64,000 bases of DNA from an uncultured Alphaproteobacteria bacterium (GTDB lineage: Bacteria; Pseudomonadota; Alphaproteobacteria; HIMB59), in the NCBI GenBank assembly GCA_902557145.1, contig CACDYZ010000001.1:116612-180611 (forward strand). Reading direction: 5' to 3'. Positions 1 through 10,911 of this stretch are shown here, one piece after another; position 1 is the stretch's first letter; each line of letters starts with the position of its first letter. The notes beneath the pieces are model-generated. The model saw only the letters and a list, made by a program, of their open reading frames with translations. It was not told where the DNA came from and did no database searches. The translations under genes were made by a program, and so were the position numbers.

Positions 1-1
1 A

Positions 2-790
2 ATTAATTGCGATAAATTATTAACAAAGACAATTACGTTTAATAATATTGAAGAAACTATTCGTAGTTTCGATAAATATCAAGATTGGGATTACTCTGTA
101 GCTTGGGTTGATTTAGCTAATAAAAAAAAAATTGGAAAATCAGTTCTTATTCTTGCAAATCATATAAAGAAAAAAACAAAAATTGAAAATTACACATTTA
201 ACAAAACTAGTAATTTATTTTTCTTAACATTTTTATCACCATTTTTTAATAACGTTTTTATCAAGATTTTTAATAGTATTTATTTTTTTTTGAATTCTTC
301 AAAAAGACAAAAGCAAGAAATTATGAGTATTGATAATTATTTTTATCCTCTTGATAAAATTAATAATTGGAATGATATTTATGGAAAAAATGGCCTTGTC
401 CAATATCAATTTGTTTTACCCGAAAAAAAATTTAAAACTGCAATATATGAAATATTAGATTTGATTAATAATTCAAAAATAGCTCCAAAACTTGTAGTTT
501 TAAAAAAAATGGCAAATGAAACTAGAAAAGGTATATCTTTCCCCATGAGAGGGTACACCATGGCTTTAGATTTTTCATATAGTAATAATGTATCTCAATT
601 ATTTAAGTCTTTTGACTCAATTATCATGAAATACAAAGGTAGAATATATTTAACTAAAGATTATTTAATAGACAAAGAGTCAATCTATAAAATGGATCCA
701 GCAATGTTGAAATTTAAAAAATTTTTAAAAAACAAATCGTATTATTTAAAAATTAATTCATTACAATTTAAGAGATTTGGCTTTAAATAA
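2..790 (+). CDS. FAD-linked oxidase, DprE1-like (decaprenylphosphoryl-ribose oxidase family), 5' truncated by window edge
   Basis: The frame of ORF 290..790 stays open to base 2 with no stop (INCDKLLTKTITFNNIEETIRSFDKYQDWDYSVAWVDLA...). C-terminal motifs (GLVQYQFVLP, FPMRGYTMALDF) look DprE1-like. It is followed by a DprE2-like SDR. Confidence 0.75.
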   Translation: MNCDKLLTKTITFNNIEETIRSFDKYQDWDYSVAWVDLANKKKIGKSVLILANHIKKKTKIENYTFNKTSNLFFLTFLSPFFNNVFIKIFNSIYFFLNSSKRQKQEIMSIDNYFYPLDKINNWNDIYGKNGLVQYQFVLPEKKFKTAIYEILDLINNSKIAPKLVVLKKMANETRKGISFPMRGYTMALDFSYSNNVSQLFKSFDSIIMKYKGRIYLTKDYLIDKESIYKMDPAMLKFKKFLKNKSYYLKINSLQFKRFGFK

Positions 791-1511
791 CTCTTTAACA
801 AAAAAAAACATTTTAATTTTAGGTGCAAATTCTGATGTGGGGATTTCACTTTTAAATAATCTTTATGCCAATGGATGTAACTTATTTTTAGCTTCAAGAA
901 ACTTAGTAAATTTAAAAAAAATAACAAAAGATAAAAACTTTATAATGGATAGAATTAAATTCATTCACCTTGATGTTTTGAGTGAGATTTCAATATCATC
1001 TCTTTTCGATAGTAATATTGAGACTCCAGATATTATCATTTCTTGTGTAGGTTATTTAAATGATGAAGACTCAAATTTATCAAAAATTCTAAGGACAAAT
1101 TTTGAAGGTCCAGCGACTATTATCAATAGATATATCGACCAATTTTTATCAAGAGGTTATGGCACTATAGTTGGAGTGAGTTCTATTGCTGGTGAGAGGG
1201 GTAGAGGAAAAAACTATCTATATTCCTCTGCTAAATCCGGATTTACAAGCTATCTCTCAGGTTTGAGATCAAAATATAATCATAAAAATATAAAAGTTAT
1301 TACAGTTATACCTGGTTACATTGATACAAAAATGACTGAAGGTTTAAAATTAAATAAATTTATTACTGCTTCACCGGAGCTTGTTGCGAACAAAATAATA
1401 AATGCAATTGTTAAAGATAAGAAAATTGAATATATATCTTTTTTTTGGTTTATTGTGGCAGTCATTTTAAGAAATTTACCAGATTTTATTATAAGAAAAA
1501 TTAAGTTTTGA
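777..1511 (+). CDS. Short-chain dehydrogenase, DprE2-like
   Basis: NAD-binding GANSDVG, YSSAKSGF catalytic motif. TTG start overlapping the upstream CDS. Confidence 0.75.
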   Translation: MALNNSLTKKNILILGANSDVGISLLNNLYANGCNLFLASRNLVNLKKITKDKNFIMDRIKFIHLDVLSEISISSLFDSNIETPDIIISCVGYLNDEDSNLSKILRTNFEGPATIINRYIDQFLSRGYGTIVGVSSIAGERGRGKNYLYSSAKSGFTSYLSGLRSKYNHKNIKVITVIPGYIDTKMTEGLKLNKFITASPELVANKIINAIVKDKKIEYISFFWFIVAVILRNLPDFIIRKIKF

Positions 1512-3100
1512 TTAATATTTTAATCAAGTTATCTGATAGACAGTTATTAATATTATTAATAATTATAAGTATTTTCTATAGATTAATAATCTATTTTTTT
1601 TATGGAAATGCACATTTTTCAATTAATGAAAATGAAATATATAATTATGAAATCTTAAATAATTTAACAAAAATTTTAAATATTATTCATACAAAACCTG
1701 CTGGTTTCATTCTTAGAGATTATTTATTTATAATGACCTCTAATTATCTAAATTTAAGTTATATAATAACCAGATTTTTATTCCAAAATTTTTTACATTT
1801 ACTTTGTTTGATAATGTTATTTTCAATACTTGTTCATACATTTAGTATAAATAAATATTTTTCCTTATTTATTCTGATAATTTACTCTTTATCAATTGTT
1901 GTTTTTGAATATTGGAGATATTCAGGCCATTTTGATCACTTCAATATTTTTCTGATTGTGGCTCTTATGTATTTTTCATTATTTGTTATAGATAAATCAT
2001 TAACAATATTTAATACTGTTGGTTTAATTTTAATAATTTATTTTTTCAATTTATTTTATACTATCTCAATAATTCCCATTGGGATCTCTATTATTTTTAT
2101 AGGATTTAACATTTTTTATAAAACTAATAAAATAAAACAGTTTACCTTACTTTCTATTATCTGTATTTCCTTTTTCACTAGTTATGCTTTATTATGCAAA
2201 AAAAATTTTAATAATTTCAACTTACCATTTTCATCAACAGTACAAGGTCAAAATTCTCTTCAATTTTCGATCTCAAATAAATTTATATCCTCTAATGATT
2301 TCATAAATTTTATTGATAGAGGTAACTATCCCAATTGGTATAAAATATGTGCTAAGAATGCCCATAATAAATTTAATGATTATCAATCAATAATTTATGG
2401 TGAGTGTGTATTCAAAGAAAAAGATGGAGAAAGATTATATAAATTTGATACTGATTTTCTGGAATTTATCTATGATAATTCACCTATTTATATTCAAAAT
2501 CATATATTAAAAGACTTATCACACATAAAAACTAGTGAATTTGTATTAATGAATTTTGGTGTTTCAGAGTCAAATTTATTTTTTTCTGCTGAATATGGAA
2601 AAATATCTAAAAAAGTCTCTAGAGATTTACAGATAAAATTTCCATTTAACTCATTTTTAGATAATTTTTATAGCTCTATTGATTATTTGATATTTGATGG
2701 GTCTTATTTTTTTCAGGGTAATGATTATGAACCTCAATTAATAAATCTACCTTACATACATAATATATTTGGAAGATTTATAGGTATTTTTTTACATTTA
2801 GGAACAATTTTTGCACTAATTTATTTTTTTCATTCAATCATTAAATATCCATCTCAAATAATTAGATCAAAAAAATTAAAATTTAATGATATTTTTAATG
2901 TAATAAAAAAAAATAGTCTCTTTATATATATTTTGACTAATATGATAGCCCTAATTTTTGCTCTATCATTAAGTACATGCTGTGAAAATGCAAGAATGTT
3001 TGTAATTATATCTCCATTATCACTTGTAGCATTTTGTTATTTATACAAAAATATAAATTTTTTAGGGTATTTATCAAATGGTTCCGCCGAGAAGAATTGA
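1508..3100 (+). CDS. Polytopic membrane protein, possible GT-C-like glycosyltransferase
   Basis: 530 aa with many TM segments. TTG start overlaps the upstream TGA. C-terminus NGSAEKN* is encoded by a tRNA-Thr-derived sequence. Confidence 0.55.
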   Translation: MINILIKLSDRQLLILLIIISIFYRLIIYFFYGNAHFSINENEIYNYEILNNLTKILNIIHTKPAGFILRDYLFIMTSNYLNLSYIITRFLFQNFLHLLCLIMLFSILVHTFSINKYFSLFILIIYSLSIVVFEYWRYSGHFDHFNIFLIVALMYFSLFVIDKSLTIFNTVGLILIIYFFNLFYTISIIPIGISIIFIGFNIFYKTNKIKQFTLLSIICISFFTSYALLCKKNFNNFNLPFSSTVQGQNSLQFSISNKFISSNDFINFIDRGNYPNWYKICAKNAHNKFNDYQSIIYGECVFKEKDGERLYKFDTDFLEFIYDNSPIYIQNHILKDLSHIKTSEFVLMNFGVSESNLFFSAEYGKISKKVSRDLQIKFPFNSFLDNFYSSIDYLIFDGSYFFQGNDYEPQLINLPYIHNIFGRFIGIFLHLGTIFALIYFFHSIIKYPSQIIRSKKLKFNDIFNVIKKNSLFIYILTNMIALIFALSLSTCCENARMFVIISPLSLVAFCYLYKNINFLGYLSNGSAEKN

Positions 3101-3104
3101 ATTT
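3077..3104 (-). repeat. Partial tRNA-Thr 3'-end copy (att-like direct repeat of 4653..4680)
   Basis: aatggttccgccgagaagaattgaattt versus aatggtgccgccgagaagaattgaactt; 26/28 identical. Confidence 0.85.
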
Positions 3105-3200
3105 GTTTTCTTACTATTTATCAAGTAGAGATTCATTTTAATAAAATACTTCTATTTTACTTCACTCAAATTTTTTATTATTGAAAAAATGTTTTAGCTT

Positions 3201-4631
3201 TTATTTGATATCTAAAACTCCTATGGAAGCTGTATCTTCCATAAATAAATACAATTTATCATCTTTAAATCCAAGATCTCTTATTCTTTCAAATACCTCG
3301 ATTCTATTTAAATTAATTAATTGTTTTTTATTATTTAATTCAAAAAAATAGATAGATTTATCTCTCAATGAACTTACAACATACTTACTTTCCCCAATTT
3401 TGTGTATTTCCGAAATACCAATCGATGGTACAAATGATTTTAGTGGTTCAATATAACCGTGGTCATTATGTGATTTATACAACGGATATTTATCATATTT
3501 TTTTTGATTGTATTCATTTCTTTCACCGTAATGCTCGCCAGCAGAAGAAATTGGCCAACCAAAATTTTGAATTTCATCTTCGTTTATTTTATCTGCGTCG
3601 ATTATATTAATTTCATCGCCACCTTTTGGTCCATGTTCTGTTTCTAATATGATATTTTTTTCTTTATCATAATACAAACCCTGTGGATTCCTATGACCCA
3701 TTGAAATTATTTTAAAATCACTTTTTTCAATATTTATCTTGATTATTTTTCCATTTAAACTTTCTTTATCCTGAGCTAGATATCTGCTTCTATAATCACC
3801 GACTGACAATAATATGTTTTTGTCATCAAAGGGAATTATTCTACCGCCAGATTGATGAGCATTAAATTCGTTATCTATATTATTAACTATATGAATACAT
3901 TTTTTTGGTGAAAATAGCTTTGTAAATTTAATATTTTTATAATTTAGATCTCCATAAATGATACTCGTATTCCAACAATCATCATTGATTTCTTCTGTAT
4001 ATGAAATGAAGATCTTACCATTGAAAATTAAAAGGTCTTTTAATGAAAACCAGCTACCTTGTTTATATTGATATTTTTTAAACTGATTTAAACCTATAAA
4101 GTCGTTAATATTGTTTTTAATTTGTTTAAAATTTTCTTCATCATTATTTAGACCTTTTCTAAATGCTATAATTCCACGTGCTGACAATATGAATATATTA
4201 TCTTCATAAAAATCTAAATAACCACTACCTGGAAACTTACTATTTATACCGCTATAAAAACCTGAAATTAATTTATATTTATTTAATATTAAATCATTTG
4301 ATAATTTTAAATCACTTTCCTTAATTTGAATGTCTAAACCCTTTTCTTTTGTGTCTAACTCCAGAATTGTAAATACCTGTTTAGTCTTATTAAGCATTTC
4401 TTTCTGTTGAGATATTAACTCTTGTTGTTGAGATATTAACTCTTGTTGTTGAGATACCATTTTATAAGGAAAAATATATTTTTTAATGAAATATTTTTGA
4501 TCATCACTTAATAACGATTTAAGATAATTATGTCTGTCATTATTAATACTCGAATTTATTAAAAGAAAACAAATCAAAATTACTATGCTTATTAAAATTA
4601 AAATTATCTTAGTACTTAGCTTTTTAATCAT
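3201..4631 (-). CDS. Glucose/sorbosone dehydrogenase-like (PQQ-type beta-propeller) protein with N-terminal TM and coiled coil
   Basis: GHRNPQGLYYD...ETEHGPKGGDEIN motif; N-terminal hydrophobic segment followed by SQQQELI heptads. Confidence 0.75.
   Translation of the reverse strand: MIKKLSTKIILILISIVILICFLLINSSINNDRHNYLKSLLSDDQKYFIKKYIFPYKMVSQQQELISQQQELISQQKEMLNKTKQVFTILELDTKEKGLDIQIKESDLKLSNDLILNKYKLISGFYSGINSKFPGSGYLDFYEDNIFILSARGIIAFRKGLNNDEENFKQIKNNINDFIGLNQFKKYQYKQGSWFSLKDLLIFNGKIFISYTEEINDDCWNTSIIYGDLNYKNIKFTKLFSPKKCIHIVNNIDNEFNAHQSGGRIIPFDDKNILLSVGDYRSRYLAQDKESLNGKIIKINIEKSDFKIISMGHRNPQGLYYDKEKNIILETEHGPKGGDEINIIDADKINEDEIQNFGWPISSAGEHYGERNEYNQKKYDKYPLYKSHNDHGYIEPLKSFVPSIGISEIHKIGESKYVVSSLRDKSIYFFELNNKKQLINLNRIEVFERIRDLGFKDDKLYLFMEDTASIGVLDIK
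4402..4460 (-). repeat. ~21-bp tandem repeat, about 3 copies, encoding SQQQELI heptads
   Basis: gttgagatattaactcttgtt repeated in tandem inside the dehydrogenase-like ORF. Confidence 0.75.
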
Positions 4632-4654
4632 TATTTTATAAACTTATCATGTAA

Positions 4655-4729
4655 TGGTGCCGCCGAGAAGAATTGAACTTCCGACCCCACCCTTACCAAG
4701 GGTGTGCTCTACCACTGAGCTACGGCGGC
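4655..4729 (-). tRNA. tRNA-Thr(GGT)
   Basis: Reverse complement GCCGCCGTAGCTCAGTGGTAGAGCACACCCTTGGTAAGGGTGGGGTCGGAAGTTCAATTCTTCTCGGCGGCACCA folds as a cloverleaf; anticodon GGT; CCA encoded. Confidence 0.95.
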
Positions 4730-4753: not shown

Positions 4754-4939
4754 TTAATACATATTGAAAAACATTAACAAAAGACATCCTGCAGTAAGGT
4801 ATTTAAAACTTTCATAAACAATTTTCCATTTATGGTTATTTTGGCTTATACGCCATGTAGCAAATGTAATAGCTAAACAACCAAATGAGACAAACCACAT
4901 AAAATTAGGGTTTTTAGTTAATTCAATGATATCTGACAT
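4754..4939 (-). CDS. Small hypothetical membrane protein
   Basis: 61-aa ORF with hydrophobic segments, in a compact same-strand cluster. Confidence 0.5.
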   Translation of the reverse strand: MSDIIELTKNPNFMWFVSFGCLAITFATWRISQNNHKWKIVYESFKYLTAGCLLLMFFNMY

Positions 4940-4941
4940 AA

Positions 4942-5130
4942 TTAATTTACAAGATAAAATTTATCTACTAGAAAGTTGATTAACAATACTAATCCAATCA
5001 TGAACACCCAATATAATTTTTTGTTCTTCCTTATGAATGGTATTCCAATAGCGCTGTACCTAAATAACTTATTAAGTCCCCAAATAACTAAGGGAATTAA
5101 AAACAGCCAAAATACAATTTCCCAAATCAT
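4942..5130 (-). CDS. Small hypothetical membrane protein
   Basis: 62-aa ORF with two hydrophobic segments; overlaps the upstream methyltransferase by 4 nt. Confidence 0.55.
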   Translation of the reverse strand: MIWEIVFWLFLIPLVIWGLNKLFRYSAIGIPFIRKNKKLYWVFMIGLVLLINFLVDKFYLVN

Positions 5131-5738
5131 TTCTTGGCTAATAAGACAATCCTAATTTTAATATTTGAACCAAAATCCTTATTTTTTGGGAGATAATTTA
5201 AGGGTCTAGATTTATATACTAAACGAAAATCAGATCTAGATTTTAATACATTATCAAAATTGAGATCTTTCCATAAATCTTCTCTTTGAGTAAAAATAAA
5301 ATATCCTTTTGTATCTAAATAATAGGAAACTAAGTTAAAAAGTGATTGATGATTTTCACAATATGTCATTGCTCCAATTAGACTTACTATGTTGTATTTA
5401 TTAATTATTTTAATTTTTTTTTCAAAACTCTTTTTATAAAGATTTCGATATTTTCCACTTATTTCTGAAATATTTAAAATCTTTTTTGAAATATCTGAGC
5501 CATCACATATACAAAGGGGGTAAATTTTTAAATATTCTTCAACAAAAAGCCCAGTACCACATGCTAGATCTAAAAGATATCTTGGTTTTTTTTTAATAAA
5601 TTTCTTAAGGATATTTACTGATTGTTTCGGAGCTTTATAATTCCAATTATACAAAGTCTGATCGTAAGAATTTGACCATTCATCATAAAATATTTCAACA
5701 TCTTTTGAGTTGCCAATACCTTTGCGAAGAGATTTCAT
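5127..5738 (-). CDS. Class I SAM-dependent methyltransferase
   Basis: LLDLACGTGLFVEEYLK motif I. Confidence 0.8.
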   Translation of the reverse strand: MKSLRKGIGNSKDVEIFYDEWSNSYDQTLYNWNYKAPKQSVNILKKFIKKKPRYLLDLACGTGLFVEEYLKIYPLCICDGSDISKKILNISEISGKYRNLYKKSFEKKIKIINKYNIVSLIGAMTYCENHQSLFNLVSYYLDTKGYFIFTQREDLWKDLNFDNVLKSRSDFRLVYKSRPLNYLPKNKDFGSNIKIRIVLLAKK

Positions 5739-5760: not shown

Positions 5761-7362
5761 TTATTTCCCAAAAATTCCAATTTTAACTTCATAGTCTACA
5801 GCAACACTATAATCAGGATCATCGTCACTATCTACCATCAACTGACCTGTTTTAGACAGTAGTCTATGACAGTCACGCGTTAGATGTCTTAATTTTACTT
5901 TTTTGCCTAAATTAGAATATCTATTTGCTATATCCTCTATTGCTTTTAAGGCAGACTGATCAATCACCCTTGATCTTGCAAAATCAATGATAACTACCTC
6001 TGGATCTTTTGAAGGTTTAAATATATCCAGAAAACTGTTTGTTGAGCTAAAAAATAAGGGACCCTCTATTTCATAAACTTTAGCTCCACTCTCAGTGGTA
6101 GAAGGTCTCTCCACAGCATTAATCCTAGATGCTGACTTCCAAGCAAAAACTAAAGCAGATACAATTACACCAACGACTACAGCTATAGCTAGATCTTCAA
6201 GAACTGTCACAATAGTTACTAAAATTATTACCAAAGCATCTGATTTGGGTACTACAAATAATAATTTTAAAGAATTCCAAGCAAACGTTGCAAGAACAAC
6301 CATAAACATCACTCCTACTAATGCAGCTATGGGAATTAATTCGATATAAGAGGAAGCAAATAAAATAAAAATCAATAAAAATAAAGCTGCTGACACCCCT
6401 GACATTCTAGTTCTCCCTCCTGATTTAACATTTATCATAGATTGACCTATCATTGCGCAACCACCCATGCCTCCAAAAAAACCAGTCACAGTATTAGAGA
6501 TACCTTGAGCTAAGCACTCTTTACTAGCTCCTCCTTTTTTATTTGTAATCTCTCCTACCAAATTTAATGTTAATAAGCTTTCAATTAATCCAATAGCTGC
6601 CAATATAACTGCGTAAGGAAATATTATTATTAATGTTTCTATATTTATAGGAACCATTGGAATTGAAAAAGATGGAAGGCCACCAGCAACACTTGCTAAA
6701 TCACCAACTCTAGGTATTGGAATATTAAAACTTATCACCAACCCTGTGCTTAATAAAATAGCCACTAGAGTTGAGGGAAATACTTTTGAAAATTTAGGTA
6801 ATATCCAAATTACAATCATCGTTATCACAACGATACAATAGGAATATATTAGAGTATTACCTGACATCCAAACAGACTCACCAGCTGAGTTGATTGTTTT
6901 AAATTGATTTAATTGAGAGATACCAATTACAATAGCTAGTCCATTTACAAATCCAAGCATTACTGGTTGAGGGACCATTCTTATAAATTTTCCTAATCGA
7001 AATATTCCAGATAATATCTGAAGTATTCCCATCAATACTACAGTAGCAAATAAATACTGCGCACCATGGTCAACAACTAGGGAAACCATTACAACAGCTA
7101 AGGCTCCTGTGGCACCTGATATCATCCCTGGACGGCCTCCAATTACTGCAGTTATTAAACCGACAATAAAAGCTGCATAAAGTCCAGAAAGAGGGGTGAC
7201 ACCTGCAACAAATGCAAAGGCTATTGCTTCTGGCACTAATGCGAGGGCAACGGTTAAGCCAGATAGAATCTCAATTCTAAATAATGAAAAAGATGGCCCT
7301 TCTTCAGGTATATAGTCTTTAACCAAAGAATTTGCAAATGATGATATATTTGTACTTTTCAT
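5761..7362 (-). CDS. SulP family inorganic anion transporter with C-terminal STAS domain
   Basis: GLTVALALVPEAIAFAFVAGVTPLSGLYAAF; C-terminal STAS-like VVIIDFARSRVIDQSALKAIE. Confidence 0.92.
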   Translation of the reverse strand: MKSTNISSFANSLVKDYIPEEGPSFSLFRIEILSGLTVALALVPEAIAFAFVAGVTPLSGLYAAFIVGLITAVIGGRPGMISGATGALAVVMVSLVVDHGAQYLFATVVLMGILQILSGIFRLGKFIRMVPQPVMLGFVNGLAIVIGISQLNQFKTINSAGESVWMSGNTLIYSYCIVVITMIVIWILPKFSKVFPSTLVAILLSTGLVISFNIPIPRVGDLASVAGGLPSFSIPMVPINIETLIIIFPYAVILAAIGLIESLLTLNLVGEITNKKGGASKECLAQGISNTVTGFFGGMGGCAMIGQSMINVKSGGRTRMSGVSAALFLLIFILFASSYIELIPIAALVGVMFMVVLATFAWNSLKLLFVVPKSDALVIILVTIVTVLEDLAIAVVVGVIVSALVFAWKSASRINAVERPSTTESGAKVYEIEGPLFFSSTNSFLDIFKPSKDPEVVIIDFARSRVIDQSALKAIEDIANRYSNLGKKVKLRHLTRDCHRLLSKTGQLMVDSDDDPDYSVAVDYEVKIGIFGK

Positions 7363-8634: not shown

Positions 8635-9360
8635 TTAATCTTCCCATTTAAAGCGATCGAAAGATTTAAAAATTTCAAATATGCCTTTTTCCCATTGTTT
8701 TGAAATATATTGATAATCCTCATCATTGATTTCAAGAGACTGCCGATAAACTATTTTTGATAAATTATTTTTATAAACCACCAAGTCGATAGGTGGGCCG
8801 ACAGATAAATCTGCTTTCATTGTGCTATCCATACTTATCAATGCGCACCTGGCAGCATCACCTAAATAGGTATCTGACTTTACTACTCTATCTAATATGG
8901 GTTTGCCGTACTTAATTTCCCCAATTACAAGATAGGGTTTGAACTCACTAGACTTAATAAAATTTCCTTGAGGATAAACCAAATAAAGATCTGATTCTTG
9001 ATTTTGTATATGCCCACCAACAATAAATGTTGATCCTAACTCCAGAGTTACCTGATTTATGCCATCTGGAGAAGAGTGTTGAACTGTCAGTCTTCCAATA
9101 TATTTTGCAATTTCATTGAGGTTGTAAAGATTATTTAAATTATTCCCATTAGTGGGGTCTTCTAAGTCTTTACTAATTGAATTAAAAACAGCTTGAGATG
9201 TTGCCAAATTACCAGATGTTAAAATAACAATATTTCTATCAATACCATTGTGGACATACATTTTTGTGTAAGAGTTATAATTATCTAAACCCGCATGTGT
9301 CCTTCTATCTGAGGCAAAAACCATTCCTTCATTAACTTTAATACCCACACAATAGGTCAT
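8635..9360 (-). CDS. Proteasome-type protease, Anbu (bacterial proteasome homologue) family
   Basis: MTYCVGIKVNEGMVFASDRRTHAGLDN...NIVILTSGNLA, typical of Anbu; Thr-2 as potential nucleophile. Confidence 0.88.
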   Translation of the reverse strand: MTYCVGIKVNEGMVFASDRRTHAGLDNYNSYTKMYVHNGIDRNIVILTSGNLATSQAVFNSISKDLEDPTNGNNLNNLYNLNEIAKYIGRLTVQHSSPDGINQVTLELGSTFIVGGHIQNQESDLYLVYPQGNFIKSSEFKPYLVIGEIKYGKPILDRVVKSDTYLGDAARCALISMDSTMKADLSVGPPIDLVVYKNNLSKIVYRQSLEINDEDYQYISKQWEKGIFEIFKSFDRFKWED

Positions 9361-9434
9361 AATTTAATTAAATAGCTTATTTCAAAAAAATACAAACGAA
9401 TATTTACATATTAGCAATCTAAACAATGCATAAC

Positions 9435-9453
9435 CAGTAATTGGCAATTACTG
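9435..9453. promoter_or_regulatory. Operator-like inverted repeat between divergent Anbu and ATP-grasp genes
   Basis: CAGTAATT-GGC-AATTACTG, perfect 8-bp arms with a 3-bp spacer, 12 bp before the GTG start at 9466. Confidence 0.5.
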
Positions 9454-9465
9454 TATTTTCTAAAT

Positions 9466-10911
9466 GTGTCTATAAGCTGGAACAACTATAACTCTAAAAA
9501 TAGTTACGATGAGTATCTTACACCTGATAGAAAACTCAGAAAAGAAGCAAAAGTAATTTCAAAAATATTAAATAACTATTCAAGTAAAGATTTAGCTAGT
9601 ATCGAAAACAATTGTCAAAGTACTATTAGTTCCCGGGGTATTAATTTCAAAGTTTACTCCGCTGATAAAAAAGCTGCAGAAGAAAAAAAATGGCCTTTAG
9701 ATATTATTCCAAGAATAATATTAAGATCACAGTGGCTTAAAGTAAGAAAAGGGCTAATTCAAAGATGTAAGGCCTTAAACCTTTTTATAAATGATGTTTA
9801 TAATGACAAAAAAATTTTTAAGGATAAAGTTTTACCTTATGATTTAGTTTTTGACTCAAAAAATTATTTAAAACAATGTGAAGGATTAAAACCTAAAAGA
9901 AAAATTTGGTCTCATATTTCTGGAATAGATTTAATTCGAAATATTAATGGTGAGTTCCTGGTGTTAGAGGATAATTTACGAGTTCCTTCGGGAGTGTCTT
10001 ACATGTTAGAGAATAGAATGGTAATGAGTGAGGTTTTTCCAGAGCTATTTACACGTTATAGAGTTTCTTCCATCAATCAGTATTGCAATAGATTATACCA
10101 TTGTATGTTAGATGCTATTCCTTACAAAAAAAATAACCCAACTATGGTCGTACTTACTCCTGGCGTCTACAACTCTGCTTATTTTGAACATTCTTTTTTA
10201 GCTCAACAAATGGGAATAGCATTGGTGGAGGGAAAGGATTTATATGTGGAAAATGATAAAGTTTATGTAAAGACAGTTAAAGGAGGATTAAGGGTAGATT
10301 GCATTTATAGAAGAATTGATGATATTTTTTTAGATCCTAAAACTTTCTACAAAGAGTCACTTTTAGGAGTTGCTGGTTTGTATAAATCTTATAGTAAAGG
10401 AAACGTTGGTCTTATCAACGCCCCTGGAAGTGGAGTGGCTGATGATAAAGTTATTTATTCTTATGTTCCAAAAATTATTAAATATTACTTAGATGAAGAC
10501 CCTAAACTCAATCAAGTGGAGACTTTTTTGTGTAATGATAAAAAACAAAGAGACCATGTCATATCAAATTTATCAAAAATGATTGTTAAACCTGCAGATG
10601 GGTCAGGTGGTTACGGAATTTTAGTAGGACCCAAAGCCACAAAATCAGAACGAGATTCATACGCGAGAAAGATACTACATAGTCCTAGAAATTATATTGC
10701 TCAACCTTTGGAAATTTTATCGACCACACCTACGCTTCAAGGAAATTCCATAGAACCAAGACATCAAGATTTAAGACCCTTTATATTATCTGGTAAAGAG
10801 ACTTATGTAACTATGGGAGGTTTAACAAGAGTTGCCCTAAAAAAAGGAAGCACCATTGTGAATAGTTCTCAAGGTGGAGGCTCTAAAGACACTATGGTAG
10901 TTGAGGATTAG
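9466..10911 (+). CDS. Circularly permuted ATP-grasp type 2 family protein
   Basis: 481 aa; LVLEDNLRVPSGVSYMLENR, MIVKPADGSGGYGILVGP, RHQDLRPFILSG; GTG start. Confidence 0.88.
   Translation: MSISWNNYNSKNSYDEYLTPDRKLRKEAKVISKILNNYSSKDLASIENNCQSTISSRGINFKVYSADKKAAEEKKWPLDIIPRIILRSQWLKVRKGLIQRCKALNLFINDVYNDKKIFKDKVLPYDLVFDSKNYLKQCEGLKPKRKIWSHISGIDLIRNINGEFLVLEDNLRVPSGVSYMLENRMVMSEVFPELFTRYRVSSINQYCNRLYHCMLDAIPYKKNNPTMVVLTPGVYNSAYFEHSFLAQQMGIALVEGKDLYVENDKVYVKTVKGGLRVDCIYRRIDDIFLDPKTFYKESLLGVAGLYKSYSKGNVGLINAPGSGVADDKVIYSYVPKIIKYYLDEDPKLNQVETFLCNDKKQRDHVISNLSKMIVKPADGSGGYGILVGPKATKSERDSYARKILHSPRNYIAQPLEILSTTPTLQGNSIEPRHQDLRPFILSGKETYVTMGGLTRVALKKGSTIVNSSQGGGSKDTMVVED

Follow-up and report, generated by a model that had tools for sequence, protein, structure and literature searches.

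A one-gene, 1.6-kb islet probably integrated at the tRNA-Thr gene of a HIMB59 bacterium and its analogues at the same site in relatives

Analogues of the islet described here are known from several systems. The Islander catalogue of tRNA islands (PMC4383910) contains islands with a regenerated tRNA gene and a displaced tRNA fragment at their ends, and anticodon-centred sites are common among them. Inclusion in the catalogue requires an integrase and a length of at least 2 kb (range 2-200 kb). The ssrA-specific islands of Dehalococcoides (PMC3146451) stand in tandem at one RNA gene, with the gene itself and repeats of its 3' end as their borders; of 31 islands, 15 have no integration module, and these may be fixed or may be mobilised in cis. 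Methylophilaceae, streamlined aquatic bacteria, harbour the additive island fGI-2 at tRNA-Lys. Its small insertions are reported to vary (330 bp to 42 kb, 1-63 CDS), and repeats of the terminal 20 nt of the tRNA mark them (PMC10872708). Tycheposons of Prochlorococcus and co-occurring microbes, as outlined in two papers (PMC10872708, PMC11389934), are cargo elements of 4-200 kb at tRNA genes of oligotrophic marine bacteria with a deep-branching tyrosine recombinase as their hallmark. Additionally, pTN3-like archaeal integrases use the 5' half of a tRNA gene, and the restored tRNA is read from the promoter of the element (PMC8371274).

Streamlined ocean bacteria have few obvious mobile elements and their mode of gene swapping is unclear. 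A study of another HIMB59 island argued for homologous exchange because no tRNA was seen at the island boundaries (PMC10734472). The tRNA-Thr site discussed here carries frequent small insertions, which fall below 2 kb or lack an integrase and so would be rejected by a standard island finder. It also allows the crossover to be predicted precisely and offers a recombinase as a candidate. No published description of the HIMB59 tRNA-Thr site was found in a word-based search of part of the literature.

The window (the whole stretch of DNA analysed, 64,000 nt) contains an intact tRNA-Thr(GGT) gene on the minus strand at 4655-4729 (ARAGORN). This gene, the presumed integration target, has the same sequence (100% identity) in most relatives. 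An earlier note on this DNA had reported that the 3' end of the gene is repeated nearby, and this was confirmed: 4653-4680 matches 3077-3104 in the same orientation at 26/28 positions, so that the terminal 26 nt of the tRNA (positions 50-75, plus 2 nt) are present again at 3079-3104. A 25-nt pattern of the tRNA-Thr end, allowing up to three mismatches, has exactly two matches in the window (mean of 0.00 in dinucleotide shuffles), and these are the only two places at which the tRNA-Thr end occurs in the genome (1.19 Mb, 29 contigs, 84% complete). The repeat is thus no common dispersed motif, one of two outcomes that the same note had named as contrary to its reading. The copies have the arrangement seen in the Islander catalogue, an intact tRNA and a same-orientation 3' fragment downstream of it.

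As the earlier note had stated, there is essentially one gene between the copies, and it encodes a GSDH-type sugar dehydrogenase of 476 aa (3201-4631, minus strand), the N terminus of which includes a hydrophobic segment. The match to PF07995 has an E-value of 3.4e-33 (115.8 bits against a cut-off of 25) and covers profile positions 63-325 of 332; the nearest solved relative is 2g8s (E=1.2e-12). The start codon is 23 nt from the end of the tRNA gene and both are on the same strand. No integrase was found within the islet or by profile match at the tRNA-Thr locus of the window, and thus neither the Islander integrase nor the tycheposon recombinase has a counterpart here. At about 1.6 kb and with no integrase the islet would be filtered out of the Islander catalogue, and it differs from the much larger tycheposons in holding one gene and no recombinase. 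Among the 52 genomes of the genus, 6 (the genome of the window is one of them) contain homologues of the dehydrogenase at E<=1e-20; the highest identities are 60%, to a protein from another genus, and 59%, to one from G068, where the gene is on another contig. No dehydrogenase gene was found at tRNA-Thr in the mapped loci of relatives, and no tRNA gene was found in the 12-14 kb surrounding the closest homologues (G068, G161). The gene is therefore patchy and is not at tRNA-Thr elsewhere; conservation in place among relatives was the second of the contrary outcomes and is not the case.

The boundaries of the islet were redrawn relative to the earlier note, which had placed them at 3105 and 4652. 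In relatives (see below) the copies of the 3' and 5' parts of tRNA-Thr overlap in TTGGTAA, the anticodon loop, which in the window is intact at 4693-4699 (minus strand, tRNA positions 31-37) and is taken as the crossover core and inner boundary. The outer copy is recognisable over 26 nt only and the middle of the 3' half cannot be recognised, but the sequence CTTGATAA at 3118-3125 (minus strand; CTTGGTAA in the tRNA) lies near the place where an outer core is expected. It reads TTGATAA and matches at 7/8 positions if the flanking C is counted, and at random positions of the window so good a match no more than 2 nt away from the predicted spot turns up 0.27% of the time. The outer copy therefore probably once extended to this degraded core, the putative outer boundary. 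The islet unit would then span about 3118-4692 (~1.6 kb), and the present-day 3' half of the tRNA (4655-4692) would have come in with it.

The outer copy is also coding DNA for the most part. A convergent 530-aa ORF (1508-3100, plus strand) with no Pfam match stops inside the conserved repeat block, with its TGA at 3098-3100, and its last codons (...NGSAEKN) are read from the antisense strand of the displaced tRNA end. The 3' end of tRNA-Thr read antisense encodes ...GAAEKN followed by a stop, and the same kind of tail is found in G021, in which a lyase gene terminates inside the intact tRNA-Thr (...DGAAEKN), and in G064, in which a relative terminates inside a displaced tRNA half (...DGATEKN). 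Relatives in the opposite orientation terminate earlier. The simplest order of events, judged from these gene ends, is that the 530-aa gene abutted the tRNA and that the dehydrogenase islet came between them later, which would also account for the preservation of the copy as far as the stop codon (3100) and for its decay past that point, the core-like CTTGATAA excepted. A search of 162 genomes of the order gave no homologue of the 530-aa ORF. This ORF is one of seven convergent genes between the displaced tRNA end and conserved genes (window 1-3100 and G000:C1:112779-116611), which encode the 530-aa membrane protein, an SDR, an FAD-binding oxidoreductase, a UbiA-type prenyltransferase, two unknown proteins, and an FkbM methyltransferase. 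The inner flank is stable. A 61-aa ORF that lies a short way upstream of the tRNA (4754-4939, minus strand) is conserved and is present in most mapped loci. A methyltransferase-like gene (5127-5738, minus strand; weak PF13489 match) shows synteny with the tRNA in the majority of the mapped relatives and was used as the anchor.

Much of the evidence comes from the same locus in relatives. In the 52 genomes of the genus (putatively HIMB59/AEGEAN-169), 44 with a tRNA-Thr match, the loci were oriented and the genes and tRNA pieces were mapped. Partial copies of tRNA-Thr are present at 19 of the 45 mapped loci (16 3' halves, one of them inverted, and 13 5' halves). Partial and intact copies delimit 29 intervals, the shortest of 263 bp and the longest of 6373 bp (median 1711), and 28 of the intervals contain no integrase. 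The 3' copies mostly start at tRNA positions 24-31 and the 5' copies mostly finish at positions 36-38; the segment common to both is the 7-nt anticodon loop (positions 31-37), which from this overlap is likely the crossover. The loop is bracketed by the palindromic stem CACCC/GGGTG, the layout given for tyrosine-recombinase sites in tRNA genes (PMC8371274). The cargo of the other islets includes polysaccharide lyases (PF14099, PF05426), esterase-like proteins, an acyltransferase, cytosine methylases with a HaeIII-type nuclease, and Mrr/ResIII and UvrD-like helicases, so that the different cargo between tRNA-Thr and displaced halves that the earlier note had named as a supporting outcome is seen in relatives. 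One interval, in G072 (L151:8904-9212, C3), has no gene at all, with 189 nt between the intact tRNA-Thr and a perfect 3' half.

Empty sites, in which conserved genes directly follow tRNA-Thr, are found in four genomes (G008, G020, G025, G065). In four others (G007, G066, G068, G072) the 300 nt that follow the outer 3' copy share 92-99% identity with the empty-site flank; this range holds against most of the four empty-site references, with a lowest value of 90%, and an unrelated stretch gives 69%. G022 and G001 have the same outer flank and different cargo. The empty-site comparison proposed in the earlier note is thus borne out for the islet family and not for the junction in the window, for which no empty site was found among the genomes examined; the outer flank of the window matches the empty-site flanks no better than background and the 530-aa ORF has no homologue, which is why that part of the comparison has no partner. 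Precise insertion is evidenced in the islets of relatives only, and these lend support to the proposal in the earlier note of a cargo-only, integrase-less islet at the tRNA.

Insertions in relatives have occurred on both sides of the tRNA. The same end module adjoins the 3' half in some genomes and the 5' half in others, and the end modules of G004 (5') and G064 (3') are 97.6% identical over 165 nt. A conserved AT-rich block is found directly upstream of tRNA-Thr in 12 sequences from at least 11 genomes and is unlike the native upstream sequence; the 5'-side islets therefore bring a new upstream region, which probably includes a promoter, judging from its location and conservation. Sigma-70 scans around tRNA-Thr scored no better than shuffles and are uninformative, so that position and conservation are the sole basis of statements about promoters. 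The 5'-side islets parallel the pTN3-like system, which differs in being archaeal, and the islet of the window is of the 3' type. Partial 5' pieces account for 13 of 29 in the HIMB59 loci as opposed to their rarity in the Islander catalogue (159/3919). The passages on fGI-2 cited above concern another lineage and another tRNA and describe neither 5' halves nor two-sided insertion (PMC10872708). The Dehalococcoides islands differ in that the target is the T-loop of the tmRNA, the recombinases are serine recombinases, and the copies are of the 3' end only, whereas in HIMB59 the target is the anticodon loop of tRNA-Thr, one relative has a tyrosine integrase, and islets lie to either side of the tRNA.

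Several further arrangements were observed at these loci. In G070 (L149:3778-11629, C3) islets are stacked upstream of one tRNA-Thr, with three 5' halves followed by the intact tRNA, and the stack includes one 3' half in inverted orientation. In G011 (L052, C2) an intact tRNA-Thr is inverted relative to its flanking genes. At six loci (L034, L053, L146, L147, L149, L150) unrelated islet genes, including polysaccharide/alginate lyase genes, begin with nearly the same signal peptide sequence (MKTLLALLLLIPSLSWGLTF...); it is as though the islet end module extended into the 5' end of the gene. A strongly conserved protein of 61-71 aa (MAKQDIKIYKVKSKEDYIRQ...) with no Pfam match is encoded at the outer end of restriction-modification islets (L038, L147, L148) and also at L044 and L052; it is possible that it is a hallmark or directionality factor.

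A profile of six related integrases was compared to all six-frame ORFs of the mapped loci and only one integrase was found, a 366-aa ORF with a PF00589 (tyrosine integrase) match beside the tRNA-Thr of G001. About 70-100 nt of the tRNA-proximal end of the G001 element, including a repeated GGGTACAC-type motif, are kept in G028, G032, and G068, which have no integrase at their tRNA-Thr loci; in G068 the integrase-type ribosome-binding site and start codon are kept and restriction genes replace the integrase. The search for a tRNA-Thr-targeting recombinase that the earlier note had called for therefore yielded one in a relative and none beside tRNA-Thr in the 84%-complete assembly of the window's own genome. 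Related integrases adjoin tRNA-Gly, tRNA-Met and, in the genome of the window, tRNA-Ala. At the last of these (L158:6002-10743, G000:C9) the intact tRNA-Ala(GGC) is at 10668-10743, a perfect 5' half (positions 1-41) is at 6002-6042, and a tyrosine integrase of about 327 aa lies between them next to the tRNA; this element is a 5'-type insertion. A phage origin was considered and rejected: the tRNA 3' half from the core onwards has no exact match in viral contigs, in which no relatives of the G001 integrase or of the dehydrogenase were found either, matches of the tRNA query to phage records are partial (the best among those listed are phage tRNA-Thr genes of at most 84% identity), and the dehydrogenase matches phage records at 26% only.

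Taken together, the repeat, the single cargo gene, the absence of an internal integrase, the lack of the dehydrogenase gene at this site in relatives, and the many analogous islets, four with a precise empty-site flank, are direct results, and the segment 3118-4692 is very probably an integrated islet of 1.6 kb with the dehydrogenase as its one gene, inserted at the anticodon loop of tRNA-Thr. On comparison with the relatives the tRNA-insertion reading appears well supported. Counting against it are the missing empty site for the junction in the window, the short outer copy, the lack of end sequence in common with other islets, and the absence of an integrase from the interior. Incoming DNA, probably circular and carrying a tRNA-Thr 3' half, would have recombined with the chromosomal tRNA at the 7-bp loop TTGGTAA. 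The incoming 3' half would have restored a complete tRNA and the old 3' half would have been displaced outward to 3079-3124, where it would have decayed except for the stretch that supplies the last codons and the stop of the adjoining 530-aa gene. A tyrosine recombinase, from a lost integrase gene or from another element, may have made the insertion, and the dehydrogenase gene may be transcribed from the tRNA promoter. Because the outer copy has decayed (core TTGATAA) and survives only where it is the coding tail and stop of the ORF, the islet is probably a remnant, an old and immobile member of a busy site, and its excision would no longer be possible with the outer core mutated.

How the islet reached the tRNA can be explained in more than one way. 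A repeat arisen by chance or dispersed, beside an ordinary vertically inherited gene, has nothing in its favour except that the copy is short, and it was rejected as scarcely credible following the pattern search, the genome search, and the shuffles: the expectation is 0.00, the genome holds two copies, and the dehydrogenase is absent from the site in relatives. It is unlikely that incoming DNA already equipped with tRNA-Thr ends was exchanged by homologous recombination through the tRNA pieces, with no site-specific recombinase acting at this step. The many pieces at the locus could serve as homology, such exchange was proposed for the other HIMB59 island (PMC10734472), and the inverted tRNA in G011 and the inverted half in G070 point to rearrangement, but the ends of most copies coincide at one 7-nt loop, which is what a site-specific crossover, and not homologous exchange, would be expected to produce.

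Two further explanations involve a recombinase, and each is possible though short of an even chance. The islet may be a unit with tRNA-derived attachment sites for whose movement another source, such as a G001-like element or a phage, routinely supplies the recombinase, and it may remain mobilisable; on this view the absence of an integrase would be the normal state of such units. This agrees with the 28 of 29 intervals that contain none, with the G001 element end and its motif retained without the integrase in three genomes, with the same end modules in several genomes on both sides of the tRNA, and with the related integrase in the genome of the window, but that integrase is at tRNA-Ala, no tRNA-Thr integrase is found in the assembly, the outer core of the islet is mutated, and no end sequence is shared between this islet and the others. 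Alternatively, a larger element with its own integrase may have inserted and then lost everything except the dehydrogenase gene, a tentative reading for which G068, with its integrase-type ribosome-binding site and start codon in front of restriction genes, demonstrates that such loss or replacement occurs. Against it, no integrase fragment or shared end is left in the islet of the window, and the 23 nt between the start codon and the tRNA leave little room for one.

For the islet family as a whole, trans mobilisation is plausible. We tentatively propose, as a broader picture with less than even odds, that the HIMB59 tRNA-Thr gene is a cassette site at which small integrase-less islets with shared end modules would enter at the anticodon loop on either side, bringing a 3' half or an upstream region and a 5' half so that the tRNA stays whole. 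The islets would stack in tandem, be moved in trans, and serve to exchange polysaccharide lyases as well as restriction systems, and the dehydrogenase islet would be an old member. Elsewhere in the window, a proteasome-type hydrolase gene and, on the other strand, a circularly permuted ATP-grasp gene lie close to each other (8635-10911), and the tmRNA of this genome is reported as the permuted type.
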